Origin: Propionibacteriaceae bacterium
GTDB lineage: Bacteria > Actinomycetota > Actinomycetes > Propionibacteriales > Propionibacteriaceae
Assembly: GCA_027492675.1 (NCBI GenBank)
Contig: JAPUEI010000085.1
Location: 1 to 39,400 of the forward strand
DNA length: 39,400 nt
Reading direction: 5' to 3'
The notes below the pieces were generated by a model. It searched no databases. It was not told where the DNA came from and was given only the letters and a program-made list of their open reading frames with translations. This document shows positions 15,452 through 25,581 of the stretch, piece by piece. Position 1 is the first letter of the stretch, and every line of letters starts with the position of its first letter. The position numbers and the translations under genes are program-made.

Positions 15452-16456
15452 TCAGTCGAGGGAATCAACCAGGACAGTCGCTTCCGAAAGGGTGGTGAGC
15501 AACATCTGCCCGAAGGACGTGAGTAGGGGGACGGGATATCCGGGATACTGATCCGCATGTGCGGCTGCGGTGCTCATCTGGCAGGCGAAGGCAGTCGCTA
15601 GCACCACATCCGACCCGAAGACTTTGGATGCTGGCAGGCGACTGGACGGGCGGAACAGAAGGCCCATGAAGTGTACGGCCCAACCCGCGACCATATCGTC
15701 GGTGACCCCGAGCGAACTAGCGAGCGCCGCACCGGCCTTCCCAAATTGTTCTGTTCCGCGGCTCTGAATGAGGCGCCAGAGTTGCGCAACTAGTGAGTCT
15801 CCAGCTCCCAGGCTGGGCCTGAACGCCCGGGAATTGGCTACTGCCCGATGCGCCTGCAAGAAGGCTTCCACGCATTCCTTCATGTTTGATGCGGGCGGCC
15901 TGTCCAGTAGGGCCCACAAGGAGTCTCCACTGCTCGGGTGGGTCACCACGCGCACACGGAGTCGACGCAGAAGCGCGGCCTCGAGATCGTAAACCGCTGA
16001 ATTCAGGTCGGAGATTCCAGTACGGGCGTCATTAACGGCAGCGTCAAGGCGCCAGGTTTCGTCCTTCACCACTGCATGAACGGTCCGGTCCGAGAGAATC
16101 GGGAACCAGCTGGGAAGCATGACCGGCGAGGATGCCTGCGCAATCCCCAACTGCTTCTTTGCCAGGAGGACTATGTGGAGCGAGTCGGACGCCTGGAATG
16201 ACGCCAGCCGAGACTCACAATGACTCCTGGAGTCATTCAAAATGGAAACCAGATCCGCGAGCAGCGCGTTCGGCTCATCGAAGCCGCGAGAGCGGACCAC
16301 CAAGACAAGCACGGGCAGGTCTGACAGTAGGTCTTCTAGTTCGCGCTTGAATGGTTCCCGCTCCCCCTCGATCGCCAGCCAGAGAACGCCGATCCCTTGA
16401 TCGATATGCTGCTCTCGAACACGCCTGGCGACGTCCGAGGCCACAAAGAGGCTCAT
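15452..16456 (-). CDS. Unrecognised protein coupled to the STAND-like ATPase
   Basis: The product is 334 aa and I do not recognise a family. The first ~125 residues alternate hydrophobic strands and helices (VLWLAIEG, LPVLVLVVRSRGF, LHIVLLAKKQ) like a Rossmann-type or receiver-like fold, ending in MLPSWFPIL. The remainder is mostly helical, with a long helix from SDLNSAVYDLEAALLRRL. No nuclease, protease or toxin signature is visible. The ATG at 16456 is chosen because GGAGG lies 5 nt upstream and it overlaps the ATPase stop by 1 bp (TGATG); GTG at 16459 is the alternative. Coupling suggests a fixed partnership with the ATPase, as effector, sensor or adaptor. Confidence 0.7.
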   Translation of the reverse strand: MSLFVASDVARRVREQHIDQGIGVLWLAIEGEREPFKRELEDLLSDLPVLVLVVRSRGFDEPNALLADLVSILNDSRSHCESRLASFQASDSLHIVLLAKKQLGIAQASSPVMLPSWFPILSDRTVHAVVKDETWRLDAAVNDARTGISDLNSAVYDLEAALLRRLRVRVVTHPSSGDSLWALLDRPPASNMKECVEAFLQAHRAVANSRAFRPSLGAGDSLVAQLWRLIQSRGTEQFGKAGAALASSLGVTDDMVAGWAVHFMGLLFRPSSRLPASKVFGSDVVLATAFACQMSTAAAHADQYPGYPVPLLTSFGQMLLTTLSEATVLVDSLD

Positions 16457-18846
16457 CACACCCTCCCGAGTCGGATCGGCGCGACGGTCGCGAGCCGACC
16501 CAGCAGTCGAATCTTAGGTGAGACCTGCTGACCGTCATAGTGCAGAAAGTTCGCCGAGGTCGCCGTGGTGAGAACGTAGTCGGGTGTGACCCCGAGGCTG
16601 TCGTAGTCTGCACGCCGGAATAAGTCGGAAAAGTCCGACCGGCTGACAGAGAAGGTCGACGGGCTCTCGAGGCAGATCGTTCGAAGCATGCCGTAAACGG
16701 CGTGCAACCACGGAGTGGATTGCCGACCGGTCGTCCCAAGAGCCTCCCCGATCACACCGTCACGGAAGAACTGGTAAGCGAGAGATTCACGAATGGAGGA
16801 CTTCGTTAACCGAGAGGCGGCAAAACTCACGAAATCTTCTCGCCCCAAGTTCAGGCTTCCCACGGTCCGCCTGCTTTCAATTAGCCAGTCCACCAACTCG
16901 ACGAGAAGATTCACCGTGATGAATGGATGGCCTGCCGTTTCGGCGAAGACCATCTTCGTGAAGTCTTGATCAACACTTACTCTAGAGGTAAGGATCTTCG
17001 AGACAAGGTCAGTGAACTCGTCATGGCTCAAGGATGCGCGGAATAGGGGGAAGTGATCCTGAATCACGTATGGGCTCAATTGATTCTGATCCATCAGAAT
17101 ATGATGCGCGGTGGGCTGTTGACCAAGGAATATCACGAGATTGTCTCGAGAAAATGTCACGAACTGATTGAGGAGGGGCTGAACCACTGAGTACCGCAGT
17201 CGCTGGTTAGCCTGCGCCTCGAAGGCCAACGTCCCGAAGAGCGTCTCGTACTCATCCAGTACCAGCACACGCTTCCGTTCTCGACCCTTCGAGTCCGGAG
17301 AGCCGCATTCCATGAGCGTTTCAGTAAGGAACGATGATCGAAGGTGCCCGCCGCCCTCTAGGGCGCCAACCACCCTCTTGTAGAGGACCTGTTCTTCCGG
17401 AATCTGGCCAGTGTCATCGCAGGTCTGAGCAATCACGTCGACGTCAGTAGAGTCTGAGCCCAAGTCGAGCCCAGCCGTCGTCTTGCCACTTCGTCGAACG
17501 CTACACCAGAGGCGCACCCCATTTCGCCGCTCAACGGTCCTTAGTAGGTCGCGCACGCTTGGACGGTCGACGCGATAGTAGCGAGTAAGGAAAGGATTAC
17601 CGATCGGGAAGTCGTGTGCGAAATTGTAACGAAGCAGTTGCGTCGCCCGCGTCCCGCCGTCGGACTTGAATGCCGCCCGTTGCAGGATGTTTTCGAACAC
17701 TTGTTCCGGTTGCGGCCTGGAAGAGTCGACCACTATCCCATCGAACCTTGGGTCGCTCGCGAGAAGCGCGCGCGCGACTTCCGAAGTCGTACCGATGACT
17801 GCCTTGGCCCCCTTGCCCAAAGCTTCCTCAAGGAGCTGCTGCGTCAGAGAGCCTCCTCCCAATGAAACAACCACGAAGACCGGCTCTAGCGAAGATGCAC
17901 CGCCCGCGCCGAACGTCACCTCAAGTAGCCCATTGTGCGAGCGGTACTCCGCGAGCGACGGAAGGGGGGCCAGGCTGCGGGACGCCCTGACGAATCGGTC
18001 CACGCCAAGTGCAAACACCGCGCAGTCGGATAAACCAACTACACTCCTCGAAGTGCCAATGGCTTCCCCAACTGCAATAATGTCGGGCTCAGTTAGAAAG
18101 GCGAGAGCATGCACCCATTGCTCGGGCCTTTCTCCAAGTACGTCGCCACCCGACTGACGACCGAAATCGCAGCGCCCAAAGCCAACTAGAATGCCGGCCA
18201 AAATGCCTGAAACTAACTTCCTGAGAGTAAGGGCTTCAGACGCGATGGGCCCTCGCGAGAGCGCGGCGGAATAGTACTCGATAGGTATGTCCAGAAACCT
18301 CTGCAGACCTCCGCAGGCCTTTACTAAGGCTAAGGCCTGATCTCCGCGCTGAATCGTGTGGTCGTACCCCTTGGTGAAGATGTCCAAGCAGTGCTCATCG
18401 AGCAAACCGCGAACGAGTTCGCTCGGAACCGGGTTTGAAGACAGGCCGTGATGCGTCGCCTCGAGAAAGTTGTCCGCGAAGTCAGCGAAGGCGTCGCGGT
18501 ACCATGTACTCCATTGGAAGATATGATAGTCGCGTAGTTCCGCAAGCCCTGCCTTGAATGCATCAAGCACTCCGCGCATCTTGGCCGTGATTGCACTCGC
18601 AGGACTACTGGGCGCTGGACCGGTGGTAGGTGAAGAGGATAGTGCGGCTTCCAACATGTCAGTGAGCCGTCGCTTGCGCTTCGGAAGAAAGCCGTCGATC
18701 GCTCTGCGCAAATCGGCGTCCCAGACACGAAGTTCATCGGGTCCAAGCTGTCCCATCAGGGCTGCGAGGACCCCCTCTGCATCCTCTGGCTTGACCGCTG
18801 CCAGTAGCCGATCGACCTCATCCAGTATGTCATCGGCGGAGCTCAT
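16456..18846 (-). CDS. Large STAND/archaeal-ATPase-like P-loop protein
   Basis: The 796-aa protein starts with a charged helical region (1-110), a helical middle (110-330), and a short Rossmann-like stretch at about 325-395 (VFVVVSLGGGS, KAVIGTTSEVARALL, DGIVVDSS). The ATPase part opens with NPFLTRYYRV, then Walker A SVRRSGKTT near 452 and Walker B RVLVLDEYETLFG near 528. LVIFLGQQP fits a sensor strand, and ETAGHPFITVNLLVELV near 636 matches the conserved GxP segment of PF01637-type and STAND ATPases. The first Walker A glycine appears replaced by Ser. A helical tail follows. GAGGAG lies 12 nt before the ATG. Such proteins commonly switch conformation on sensing a trigger; the trigger here is unknown. 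Confidence 0.75.
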   Translation of the reverse strand: MSSADDILDEVDRLLAAVKPEDAEGVLAALMGQLGPDELRVWDADLRRAIDGFLPKRKRRLTDMLEAALSSSPTTGPAPSSPASAITAKMRGVLDAFKAGLAELRDYHIFQWSTWYRDAFADFADNFLEATHHGLSSNPVPSELVRGLLDEHCLDIFTKGYDHTIQRGDQALALVKACGGLQRFLDIPIEYYSAALSRGPIASEALTLRKLVSGILAGILVGFGRCDFGRQSGGDVLGERPEQWVHALAFLTEPDIIAVGEAIGTSRSVVGLSDCAVFALGVDRFVRASRSLAPLPSLAEYRSHNGLLEVTFGAGGASSLEPVFVVVSLGGGSLTQQLLEEALGKGAKAVIGTTSEVARALLASDPRFDGIVVDSSRPQPEQVFENILQRAAFKSDGGTRATQLLRYNFAHDFPIGNPFLTRYYRVDRPSVRDLLRTVERRNGVRLWCSVRRSGKTTAGLDLGSDSTDVDVIAQTCDDTGQIPEEQVLYKRVVGALEGGGHLRSSFLTETLMECGSPDSKGRERKRVLVLDEYETLFGTLAFEAQANQRLRYSVVQPLLNQFVTFSRDNLVIFLGQQPTAHHILMDQNQLSPYVIQDHFPLFRASLSHDEFTDLVSKILTSRVSVDQDFTKMVFAETAGHPFITVNLLVELVDWLIESRRTVGSLNLGREDFVSFAASRLTKSSIRESLAYQFFRDGVIGEALGTTGRQSTPWLHAVYGMLRTICLESPSTFSVSRSDFSDLFRRADYDSLGVTPDYVLTTATSANFLHYDGQQVSPKIRLLGRLATVAPIRLGRV

Positions 18847-20351: not shown

Positions 20352-21362
20352 ATGACTGTCCCACAGCATTCGCGCCTCATCGCCGCCGCTGTGGCCGTCA
20401 CCTGCGCCGCCCTTCTGCTGAGCCTGGCCGGTGACATCCGAAACACCCGGGACGGGGCGCCGAGCATTGCGACGCCCGCCGCGTCGACGGCCACCTCAAC
20501 CGTGAGCCCAACCTCCTCGCTCTCGGCGACGCCCGATGCGACCAGCGCATCACCCTCGGCGTCGACCCCCTCGGCCAGCCTGTCGTCGACCGCACCAGCC
20601 ACGCGGGCGACCGCGGCCAAGCCGACGACCGTGGCCGCCGCCAGCGCGAACCTCGGCTCGTACACCTCCCCACCACCCATCGCGGGCTGGCGCGCGGACT
20701 GGAGCGACACCTTCGACGTGCCGATCGAGAGCACTCGGTGGGGCCGCTACGGCTACGGTCTCCAGGTTCCGGGGCAGGGCGCCATGGGCCGCTACCTGCA
20801 GCCGAACACGTTCACCTCCGGCGGCAAACTCATCCTGCGCACCCAGTACGCGAACGGCGAGTGGTCCAGCGCCGGCGTCAGCAGCGGCGACTTCTACGCC
20901 GTGTCGGGCGGCCGTTGGGAAGTACGGGCGAAGTTCCCGGTCTCCAAGGGCATCGGGTACGTCTTCCTGCTGTGGCCCGCCGACGAATCCTGGCCGCCGG
21001 AGATCGACTTCGCCGAAGGACGCGTCAACGGACCACAGGTGATGGGCACCTATCACTACGACAGCGACAACAAGCAGAGTCAGGTGTTGCTCTCGAACTC
21101 GTCGATGAGCAGCTGGCACACGTACGGCGTCATCATCGGCGCGACCACGATCACGTACACCCTCGACGGCAAACCGTGGGCCGTGACGACCAACCCGCGC
21201 GTCACCACCAAGCCTCTCTGGGTCGGCTTCCAGTGCGGAGCGATGGACCCGAACGGCTCGGCCAAGCAGTACGAGACCGTCGACAACGGCGTCCCGGGCC
21301 CTCTCACGCCGGCCATCAGCGACATCCAAATCGACTGGGTCGCCCACTACGTACCTGCCTGA
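20352..21362 (+). CDS. Secreted GH16 glycosidase (first copy)
   Basis: The 336-aa protein has an N-terminal hydrophobic segment (LIAAAVAVTCAALLLSL) without a lipobox Cys, a Ser/Thr/Ala/Pro-rich linker to about residue 105, then a GH16 beta-jelly-roll domain. The catalytic ExDxxE motif is intact as PEIDFAEG. GH16 enzymes cut beta-1,3 or beta-1,4 glucans and galactans, so this may remodel the surface glycan or digest polysaccharide outside the cell. The whole domain is close to the next gene, with about 82% identity by hand alignment. The ATG is preceded by AGAGGGG at 10-11 nt. Confidence 0.88.
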   Translation: MTVPQHSRLIAAAVAVTCAALLLSLAGDIRNTRDGAPSIATPAASTATSTVSPTSSLSATPDATSASPSASTPSASLSSTAPATRATAAKPTTVAAASANLGSYTSPPPIAGWRADWSDTFDVPIESTRWGRYGYGLQVPGQGAMGRYLQPNTFTSGGKLILRTQYANGEWSSAGVSSGDFYAVSGGRWEVRAKFPVSKGIGYVFLLWPADESWPPEIDFAEGRVNGPQVMGTYHYDSDNKQSQVLLSNSSMSSWHTYGVIIGATTITYTLDGKPWAVTTNPRVTTKPLWVGFQCGAMDPNGSAKQYETVDNGVPGPLTPAISDIQIDWVAHYVPA

Positions 21363-21433
21363 TCTGAGGGTCCCCTCATGTGGACTACACGTCGCTGACG
21401 ACGCCTGTACGTTCCGCCCCAGAGGGGGTCCTC

Positions 21434-22516
21434 ATGACGGTGTCGCGTGTGAGAGGTCGTGTACGTACTGCTTCCATCACCGCGGTGGGAGCGGTGTTCT
21501 TGCTCGTCTCCGTGTCGGCGTCCGCGCTGACCACCACCACCGCCGACTCGGTCCCCGTGTCCCCGGCCACCGCGAGCGTGAACACCCCCACGACGAGTAC
21601 GGCCTCGAGCCCGCTCGCTCCGGCCACCACAGCGCAACCGGCGCCGACCTCCGCCAGCAGCGCGACACCATCGGCCGTGGCGGTGTCCAAGGCGGCCGTG
21701 GCCACCTCCTCCAAGGCCGGCGTGCCATCCCCACCCGCCACGGCCCGCGTCGTCCACCAGGCCATCTCGCTGACCCAGGCCTCCGGTTCGCCGACCGCCC
21801 CACCGGGCAACTCGCCCACCACCGCCCCGTCGTACGCCGGCTGGCGCGCCGACTGGGTCGACAACTTCAACGTGCCGATCGACCAGACGAAGTGGGGTCG
21901 GTACGGCTGGGGCTACCAGGTGCCCGGGCAGGGCGCGATGGGCCGCTACCTGCAGTCCAACACGTTCACCAGCAATGGGATCATGACCCTGCGCACCCAG
22001 TACGCCAACGGCGAGTGGTCCAGCGCCGGCGTCAGCAGCGGTGACTTCTACGCCGTCTCCGGCGGACGCTGGGAGTTCCGCGCGAAGTTCCCCGTGTCCA
22101 AGGGCATCGGGTACGCCTTCCTGCTGTACCCCGACGACGACACCTGGCCCCCCGAGATCGACATCGCCGAAGGCCGCGTCAACGGGCCGCAGATCATGGG
22201 TGTCTACCACTACGACAGCGACAACAAGCAGAGCCAGGTCTTCACCAACAACGCGACGATGAGCGACTGGCACACGTACGGCGTCATCGTCGGCGCCACC
22301 ACGATCACGTACACCATCGACGGCAAGACGTGGGCCACCGTCACGAACCCCTCGGTGAGCACGAAGAAGTTCTGGATCGGCTTCCAGTGCGGCGCGATGG
22401 ACCCCAACGGCTCGGCGAAGCAGTACGAGACCGTCGACAACGGTGTCCCCGGCCCGCTCACCCCGGCGATCAGCGACATCCAGATCGACTGGGTCGCCCA
22501 CTACGTGACGGCCTGA
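21434..22516 (+). CDS. Secreted GH16 glycosidase (second copy)
   Basis: The product is 360 aa. A signal peptide-like N terminus (ASITAVGAVFLLVSVSASA) is followed by a long low-complexity linker of about 105 residues rich in Ala, Thr, Ser and Pro, then GH16 with catalytic PEIDIAEG. The start at 21434 is chosen over an in-frame GTG at 21380 because GAGGGGG lies just before it and the signal peptide begins there. It is a tandem paralogue of the previous gene: the last 40 residues are nearly identical, while linkers differ fully. The gap between them is 71 bp. The stop codon overlaps the first unit of a repeat array. Confidence 0.88.
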   Translation: MTVSRVRGRVRTASITAVGAVFLLVSVSASALTTTTADSVPVSPATASVNTPTTSTASSPLAPATTAQPAPTSASSATPSAVAVSKAAVATSSKAGVPSPPATARVVHQAISLTQASGSPTAPPGNSPTTAPSYAGWRADWVDNFNVPIDQTKWGRYGWGYQVPGQGAMGRYLQSNTFTSNGIMTLRTQYANGEWSSAGVSSGDFYAVSGGRWEFRAKFPVSKGIGYAFLLYPDDDTWPPEIDIAEGRVNGPQIMGVYHYDSDNKQSQVFTNNATMSDWHTYGVIVGATTITYTIDGKTWATVTNPSVSTKKFWIGFQCGAMDPNGSAKQYETVDNGVPGPLTPAISDIQIDWVAHYVTA

Positions 22517-22764
22517 AGTCTCTCGCCAACAGCCCCGAGTTCTCTCGGTAGCGACCTGAAGTTCTCTCCTCAACGCTGCTGAGTTCTCCGACAACTGTGC
22601 AGAAGTCTCTCGGTAACGGGGTGAAACTCTCTCGGCAAAAAGTCGGGCGGGCCTTCACCCGTTACCGAGAGACTTTCCCACCGCTGCGGAGAGACTTTCC
22701 CACCGCTGGCGAGAGACTTCCCCACCGCTGGCGAGAGAGTTTCGCACCGCTGGCGAGAGAGTTC
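22515..22764. repeat. Opposed arrays of ~22-bp units between convergent genes
   Basis: Six degenerate units of the type GAAGTCTCTCGG begin at 22515, 22537, 22558, 22581, 22602 and 22623 (steps of 21-23 bp). Five units of the reverse type GAGAGACTTTCC begin at 22667, 22689, 22711, 22733 and 22755, exactly 22 bp apart, most followed by CCACCGCTGG. The innermost arms can form a stem of about 21 bp with one bulge (22603-22624 against 22654-22674). The left arm overlaps the GH16 stop (22514-22516); the right arm ends 4 bp before the convergent kinase stop. Thus each transcript leaving its gene reads the same unit first. Confidence 0.9.
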
Positions 22765-22767
22765 TGC

Positions 22768-23982
22768 CTACACCACCTGTCGTACGAGCGCTTCCGCGGC
22801 GTCGACGATCTGGTGGGTTTCGCGCTCCCAGTTGGGTTCCTGGCTGCGGTACGGGCCGGTGGCGAGCGAGATGATCACGGCCGCGGCGCGCAGGCGGAGC
22901 TCGGTCGGGTCGACGCGCTCGTCGAAGACGGGCACCCAGGTACGAAGAAGGGCGTGTACGCGCTCGGACTGGCGCGCATTCATCCGCTGCACCGTGGAGA
23001 GGTGCGCGATCAGGCACGCCAGGTCGTCGGCGCGGCGGCCCGGGCCGACGGTGTCGATGTCGAGGATCCCGGAGATGTGCCCGTTGCGTACGAAGATCTG
23101 GCCCTCGTGGAAGTCACCGTGCGTCGGCTCGTCGCCCTCGGGGCAGTCGGCCAGGCCCTGCATGATCTGATCGGCCATCCAGTCCAGCCGAGGCTGCAGC
23201 GGCGGCATCGCCTGCGAGACCATCCGGGCGTAGTGCTTCACCGCGTCCGACCAGGGGGGACGCCGTTCCAGCGCGGAGACCGTCGTGGGCATGGCGTCGA
23301 GCACGCGGATGAGGCGCTCGGCGGTCGTGGGCGCCTCGTCGTCGAAGATGGCGCGGGCCAGCGGTCGGCCCGCGAGCTCGTCGAGCACGAGCAGGTGGTC
23401 GGACGTGGCAGCGAGGATCACCGGCGCCGGCACCCCGGCCTCGATGAGCAGCTCGTGGCGGGTCTTCACGGAGTCGAACAGCCGCTCGCGCAGCACCTTC
23501 ACGTACAGCACCTTGGGCGGCGCGCTCACGGTGCATCGCAGCACCGCACGGCGCCGCGGCCGATAGCCGATCATGTCGAGGCGGATCTGGTCGACGCCCA
23601 CGGGTGTCGGGAAGACGCGGTACTCGTTGAGCACGGCCGCCATCTCCGTGGGGTACGCGGCGCGCTCGAGACCCGGCAGGTCGGGGTCCTTGGGGTAGAT
23701 CCAGACGGCGACCTCGCGGTCCCCGTCGGCGAAGATCGCGGCCCGCTCGTCCGTACGGGCCAGGCCTCCGGCGCGCGCCGACACGCCCAGCAGCTCCTTG
23801 CGTACACCGTGGGGCCACTCGACCGACGCCACGTACGTCGCCGTGGTCGACCGCTGCGGGTTCGCGTCGATGTGGTCGAGCGCCCACGACTGGAGCACTC
23901 CACCGGCGTGCTGTACGGCAGCGCGCAGCAAGCCGCCGACCTCGTCGCTCGTCAGGAGCTTCGACCCGTCCGGATCCCGCAC
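22768..23982 (-). CDS. Phosphotransferase-fold kinase (APH family)
   Basis: The 404-aa protein has the aminoglycoside phosphotransferase/choline kinase fold: YVKVLRERLFDSVKTRHELL (ATP-binding Lys region and Glu), HGDFHEGQ near 294 as the catalytic loop (Asp base; the usual metal-binding Asn is Gln) and GILDIDTVGPG as the DxD metal motif. About 130 residues precede the kinase core, unlike short APH enzymes, and resemble no domain I know. The family phosphorylates small molecules, including sugars and antibiotics. It ends next to the repeat array and lies 49 bp downstream of the CorC-like gene, possibly in one transcript. The substrate is not predictable. Confidence 0.72.
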   Translation of the reverse strand: MRDPDGSKLLTSDEVGGLLRAAVQHAGGVLQSWALDHIDANPQRSTTATYVASVEWPHGVRKELLGVSARAGGLARTDERAAIFADGDREVAVWIYPKDPDLPGLERAAYPTEMAAVLNEYRVFPTPVGVDQIRLDMIGYRPRRRAVLRCTVSAPPKVLYVKVLRERLFDSVKTRHELLIEAGVPAPVILAATSDHLLVLDELAGRPLARAIFDDEAPTTAERLIRVLDAMPTTVSALERRPPWSDAVKHYARMVSQAMPPLQPRLDWMADQIMQGLADCPEGDEPTHGDFHEGQIFVRNGHISGILDIDTVGPGRRADDLACLIAHLSTVQRMNARQSERVHALLRTWVPVFDERVDPTELRLRAAAVIISLATGPYRSQEPNWERETHQIVDAAEALVRQVV

Positions 23983-25393: not shown

Positions 25394-25486
25394 GCGGCTC
25401 CCCGGCCCGTACTGTCTGGGTCTGTCACGGGCCCGAGTCTATCGGCGCCTGCACGAGCGGGCCCGCCGCCGCTCGTACAGACCCGG

Positions 25487-25581
25487 GTTCGCGAGACAAC
25501 CTGCACGACTCGCGAGACAACCTGTGACCCGCATCCCGGGCACAAGTTCTCTCGCGAACCGCACAAGTTCTCTCGCGAAAC
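25487..25581. repeat. Small opposed repeat array after the amylase gene
   Basis: Two units GCGAGACAACCTG begin at 25491 and 25512, and two reverse units AAGTTCTCTCGCGAA begin at 25545 and 25566. Both steps are 21 bp. The two arms are inverted around 25527-25540. The core (GCGAGAGAACTT in the reverse sense) resembles the unit of the array at 22515-22764. The array starts 3 bp after the amylase stop, as read on the minus strand. The remaining gap to the CorC-like gene (25394-25486) holds nothing else recognised. Confidence 0.8.

Follow-up and report, generated by a model that had tools for sequence, protein, structure and literature searches.

Dispersed BIME-like arrays of 22-bp putative protein sites at gene ends in a Propionibacteriaceae bacterium

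In proteobacteria, interspersed repeats at gene ends have been well characterised as palindromes with links to RAYT transposases. Iterons and the TnsB sites of Tn7-type elements are direct repeats of a protein site, spaced about 22 bp, and transposon ends may carry two opposite-sense arms of protein sites. In Neisseria and Haemophilus a short uptake motif occurs in inverted pairs at gene 3' ends, where the paired sequences act as terminators; single uptake motifs are abundant inside genes as well. The REP/BIME repeats of the GTAG and CGTC super-families are present as many short non-coding copies, which lie mainly downstream of genes, in convergent or unidirectional gaps; oppositely oriented units are able to form larger folded structures, and the CGTC type is without a known transposase (PMC3733652). 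BrickBuilt of Porphyromonas gingivalis is a minisatellite within a MITE, found as dispersed arrays of 23-nt units that break assemblies; its consensus, AGAYCATARTATCCTCTCRTRTG, contains CTCTC, and its arrays are accompanied by a leader and a tail with IS5-type terminal repeats (PMC4596501). No description of 22-bp or REP-like arrays from actinobacteria was found in the open-access literature.

The window, meaning the whole stretch of 39,400 nucleotides that was analysed, belongs to contig C85 of a Propionibacteriaceae genome assembled as 98 contigs (3.27 Mb). Within it a GH16 gene (PF00722; 21380-22516, + strand) and a phosphotransferase gene of the APH fold (PF01636; 22768-23982, - strand) converge on a gap of about 250 bases, which is filled by two sets of units, six of one sense and five of the opposite sense. 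This arrangement, proposed earlier in a sequence-only reading, was borne out when the sequence was read directly. The left arm (22515-22640) has TCTCTCG cores on the + strand at 22519, 22541, 22563, 22584, 22606 and 22628, at steps of 21-22 bp; its fourth unit is degenerate (TTCTCCG), and its spacers have diverged, with the core and the pitch alone retained. In the right arm (22655-22764) the cores lie on the - strand at 22666, 22688, 22710, 22732 and 22754, at steps of exactly 22 bp, and the five spacers are nearly identical, which points to recent tandem duplication. The top-scoring array of the window in Tandem Repeats Finder was located here (22666-22760, period 22, 4.3 copies, score 155). 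The first unit, GAAGTCTCTCG, overlaps the GH16 stop codon TGA (22514-22516) by GA, as the sequence-only reading had it; the final unit runs to 22764, which leaves three bases, not the four given there, in front of the kinase stop (22768-22770, CTA on the + strand). The innermost near-perfect inverted repeat is GAAGTCTCTCGGTAACGGGGTGAA ... TTCACCCGTTACCGAGAGACTTTC (22602-22625 and 22654-22676).

The array is not the product of slippage at one place. Compared with its own genome using BLAST, it gave 64 matches at dozens of places, and the paired pattern TCTCN{14,19}TCTCTCG matched 186 times, against 2 matches for the reversed pattern. In the sampled stretches of this genome 36 clusters of at least two units were counted, a lower bound because several contigs (C16, C57, C65 and C66) begin or end in or near arrays. 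The clusters are nearly all intergenic, and units are rare inside genes, contrary to the equal frequency there that had been considered beforehand. The family is represented once more in the window, by an array of two 21-bp units on the + strand (25540-25579), at 5-7 bp from the 3' end of an alpha-amylase/pullulanase-like gene on the - strand. Adjoining it at 25479-25523, a CGCGAGACAACCTG-type motif occurs twice and may be related to the unit, with a different core. The gap holding the second array folds very strongly (z -10).

Neighbouring units follow one another at a step of 22 bp in 116 of about 150 pairs, and their spacers differ at about 40% of positions. To keep the search core from biasing the measurement of the motif, pairs of exact cores 44 bp apart were collected and the sequence between them was scored, yielding 63 triples. 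Mismatch was 0-2% in the core columns, with 11% at the last G; it was 3% at position -3 (A), 0% at position +9 (A) and, for the majority of spacer columns, about 30-50%. What is held is the two-turn pitch together with a bipartite motif, A-nn-TCTCTCG-nn-A, while the remainder of the unit drifts. Protein sites are therefore indicated, since recent slippage alone would preserve motif and spacers alike; this is also how a binding array of the kind envisaged in the sequence-only reading would behave. The column consensus in this genome (GAAGTCTCTCGGCAACGG...) has no dyad, and neither a GTAG nor a CGTC tag appears in it as a conserved block. Each 22-bp unit would be a recognition site, in the form of the bipartite motif, for a sequence-specific protein that would contact every unit on one face of the helix, the units being stacked either in a single arm or in a pair of oppositely oriented arms. 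Judged from motif and pitch, binding of a protein to the units is quite probable.

Placement relative to genes was compared in four genomes, including the search against stop codons that had been suggested for this array. The pooled gaps with arrays were 38 convergent, 32 tandem and 9 divergent, versus 29, 193 and 101 among other gaps, as counted with a simple codon-usage gene caller, at loci picked for arrays, and with copies related by descent counted apart. Convergent gaps are enriched in arrays (odds ratio 9.4, p 4e-14), and divergent gaps are depleted. The proposal that both mRNAs open their 3' tails with GAAGTCTCTCG as a rule did not hold, because in the four genomes CGAGAGA is read in the sense direction in 84 of 106 units that come first after a stop, usually within 1-20 bp of it. 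One-armed arrays, judged at the nearest facing stop, likewise have CGAGAGA in sense in 31/39. Among two-armed arrays near stops, 31 of 32 have the order '-...+', and the order '+...-' is found only in the window; a second arm-reversed array (L025) lies between divergent genes. The distance between the innermost exact cores is nearly fixed in each genome (24-26 bp in the window's own genome, 28 in Aeromicrobium sp. Leaf350, 14-16 in Mumia), with few copies in each and for those copies with exact inner cores; in the two arm-reversed copies it is 31 and 39. The window copy is an atypical, arm-reversed member of the family.

To find other carriers, a pattern of three units was run against roughly 85,000 genomes. 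Matches were obtained in Aeromicrobium and Mumia (Nocardioidaceae), Miniimonas and Propionicimonas, and in unrelated phyla too. At the whole-genome level, paired matches numbered 23 in Aeromicrobium terrae, 39 in Mumia quercus and 30 in Aeromicrobium sp. Leaf350; the reversed pattern gave no match in these genomes. Two-armed copies are present in Aeromicrobium and Mumia as well, with the same core and pitch and with other spacers. In the genus of Leaf350, 7 of 49 genomes matched, five of these with at least four pairs, and among 395 further genomes from a sample of the phylum none had three units. The places found in a congener of the window genome (G002) were identical to those in a groundwater MAG of the Actinomycetota (NC_groundwater_1581_Pr3_B-0.1um_70_8). 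In Aeromicrobium sp. Leaf350 a TPP riboswitch (L144:6584-6676, - strand) lies close to an array locus and is unrelated to the array.

Closer to the window, the consensus of its genome's units was not found in six congeners. The GH16-phosphotransferase pair was recovered in three congeners (kinase about 92% identical), in each with an array-free gap, of about 33 bp, about 80 and about 275 bp. Absence in relatives, named in the sequence-only reading as evidence for plain tandem slippage, was thus only half the outcome: the site is empty in these three, yet at least three congeners carry arrays elsewhere with the same core and pitch and a spacer of their own. In congener G003 an array (L236) adjoins a gene whose orthologue in the window genome has a compact, array-free gap, and at one site (C66) arrays are present both in the window genome and in G002. 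Copies of the family come and go, as this presence and absence at orthologous sites demonstrates. An empty-site comparison for target-site duplication met flanks between the stops that were too diverged to reveal one.

The matches in other phyla came from the Bacteroidales genome KA00251, a Planctomycetaceae MAG, Odoribacteraceae and Spirochaetaceae. Deep homology across phyla was rejected, the KA00251 arrays being mostly in divergent gaps and the Planctomycetaceae unit being palindromic; a single cross-phylum family is not claimed, because core and pitch were themselves the search key. KA00251 (L051-L139) carries many dispersed 22-bp arrays of TCTCTCGGAAC-type units (81 pair matches versus 0 for the reversed control), and these, lying mostly in divergent gaps, are a separate class. 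In gut-sample MAGs of Planctomycetaceae, Odoribacteraceae and Prevotellaceae (L050, L076, L127 and related loci), arrays of a palindromic unit, TCTCTCGAGAGA, occur at 21 bp; the Planctomycetaceae arrays alternate in strand because the unit is a palindrome.

Genes adjoining the arrays were inspected for a mover or a binder. No common neighbour gene and no candidate cognate protein emerged among them, and no replication or transposition gene lies beside the arrays. RAYT transposase (PF01797) was detected in 0/11 genomes searched, compared with 5/14 control genomes. No common leader or tail was seen in the flanks of 14 arrays. The three-unit pattern had no match in viral contigs, and a phage origin of the arrays was rejected on that ground. 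Rfam gave no match on the window or on the array parts of ten loci, which sets the family apart from known structured RNAs.

Set beside the systems described above, the family is BIME-like by place and symmetry. It lies mainly downstream of genes, in convergent or unidirectional gaps, as REP/BIME does. The build is different: a 22-bp unit built on a TCTCTCG core is repeated directly and is not a palindrome, whereas REP is a palindrome of 20-40 bp that ends in a GTAG or CGTC tag, neither of which the unit has, and the GTAG type has a RAYT, of which the eleven genomes searched have none. Membership in the GTAG and CGTC families is ruled out by the unit structure together with the RAYT absence. 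The geometry, for which the sequence-only reading knew no described element, is indeed unusual; it is not without parallel, because location and mirrored arms resemble REP/BIME (PMC3733652). With BrickBuilt the family shares dispersed arrays of short units and the letters CTCTC, which may be common by chance since the phylum is another, but a common leader or tail was not seen around the arrays here. Iterons and Tn7-type ends differ in that the family has tens of copies at gene ends with no adjoining replication or transposition gene, and, for Tn7-type ends, in that two family copies have reversed arms. Unlike uptake sequences, the arrays have a fixed 22-bp pitch and almost none are inside genes.

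The mirrored arms could alternatively reflect a giant RNA hairpin after the stop codon, serving as a bidirectional terminator or as mRNA 3' protection, with selection acting on the RNA stem. Folded from stop to stop, the gap in the window reaches -126.7 kcal/mol (z -7.4), and z is below -3 in 31/31 two-armed gaps; in Leaf350 the element spans the whole of convergent gaps between the two stops. Array-free convergent gaps are likewise hairpin-rich (median z -3.9), and given both observations an effect on termination is plausible. When arms were swapped, however, native arms paired no better than swapped ones in four genomes, and even worse in Leaf350, so that hairpin pairing is not what is kept and co-evolution of the arms as a hairpin was rejected. 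The likeness to a bidirectional terminator extends to a stable predicted stem, though one whose arms do not co-vary. Most one-armed arrays that lie in tandem or divergent gaps fail to fold, and the spacers drift while columns -3 and +9, irrelevant to the single strand, are held. An intrinsic-terminator search over 700 bp gave one weak match, against 0.3 expected by chance, namely a hairpin with a T tract on the kinase strand between the arms (22635-22661, - strand); for the + strand the search found no T tract in the window array. Selection on an RNA stem is unlikely on this evidence. In our reading, the arms are symmetrical because sites occur in both orientations, and the hairpin is incidental, though it may be of use.

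We lean slightly towards regarding the window array as one copy of a dispersed, non-coding, REP/BIME-like family of 22-bp predicted protein sites that has no RAYT. Copies are gained and lost without coding capacity, units would be gained and homogenised within an arm by tandem duplication, as in the right arm, and copies would survive mainly in convergent gaps, where neither a promoter nor a reading frame is broken. Spread as a non-autonomous element is probable, as far as the sequence patterns tell. The family could instead be purely selfish, a minisatellite or MITE-like element that leaves the host unaffected, is tolerated where it lies and carries its own putative transposase's site as the motif; this would also fit the patchy occurrence in the genus of Leaf350 and the phylum sample, the presence and absence at orthologous sites and the near-absence from divergent gaps. 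No transposase, terminal repeat or target duplication was recognised, however, and one-armed arrays are still sense-biased at stops, which mere tolerance at gene ends does not predict; the purely selfish account is given a low probability. Direct repeats at two helical turns, in both orientations and in tens of copies, could also suit a chromosome-organising or replication site, bound by a nucleoid protein or acting as a fork barrier. The strong association with stops and with the ends of convergent genes, and the absence from close relatives, are unexpected for a basic chromosomal function, and this explanation is very improbable.

Under the reading of the arrays as predicted protein sites, an occupied array between convergent genes would be a two-way barrier separating both transcripts. 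That arrays act as a transcription barrier is possible but somewhat doubtful; at compact convergent gaps a barrier is not needed, because examples exist that have neither an array nor space for a terminator. It is less likely still that a dedicated DNA-binding protein fills the arrays to form a nucleoprotein barrier at which transcription arriving from either side stops, with spread by array turnover, and the analogy by which such a barrier would be a bacterial counterpart to protein-bound terminator boxes is similarly tenuous. The actinobacterial family differs from the proteobacterial repeats in its build, with non-palindromic 22-bp sites, mirrored arms and no RAYT. Aeromicrobium terrae, Aeromicrobium sp. 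Leaf350 and Mumia quercus are named carriers with genome sequences, so that a binding protein and an effect on convergent transcription are directly testable.

Two further features of the window were recorded. The GH16 gene beside the array belongs to a tandem pair of GH16 genes (20352-22516), and in congeners the phosphotransferase has one or more GH16 genes next to it at the orthologous place. At 15452-18846 (- strand) are two long open reading frames (335 and 796 aa) for which Pfam, NCBIfam and PADLOC gave no match; they score poorly in the genome's codon usage, below the reach of the gene caller, and are possibly foreign.
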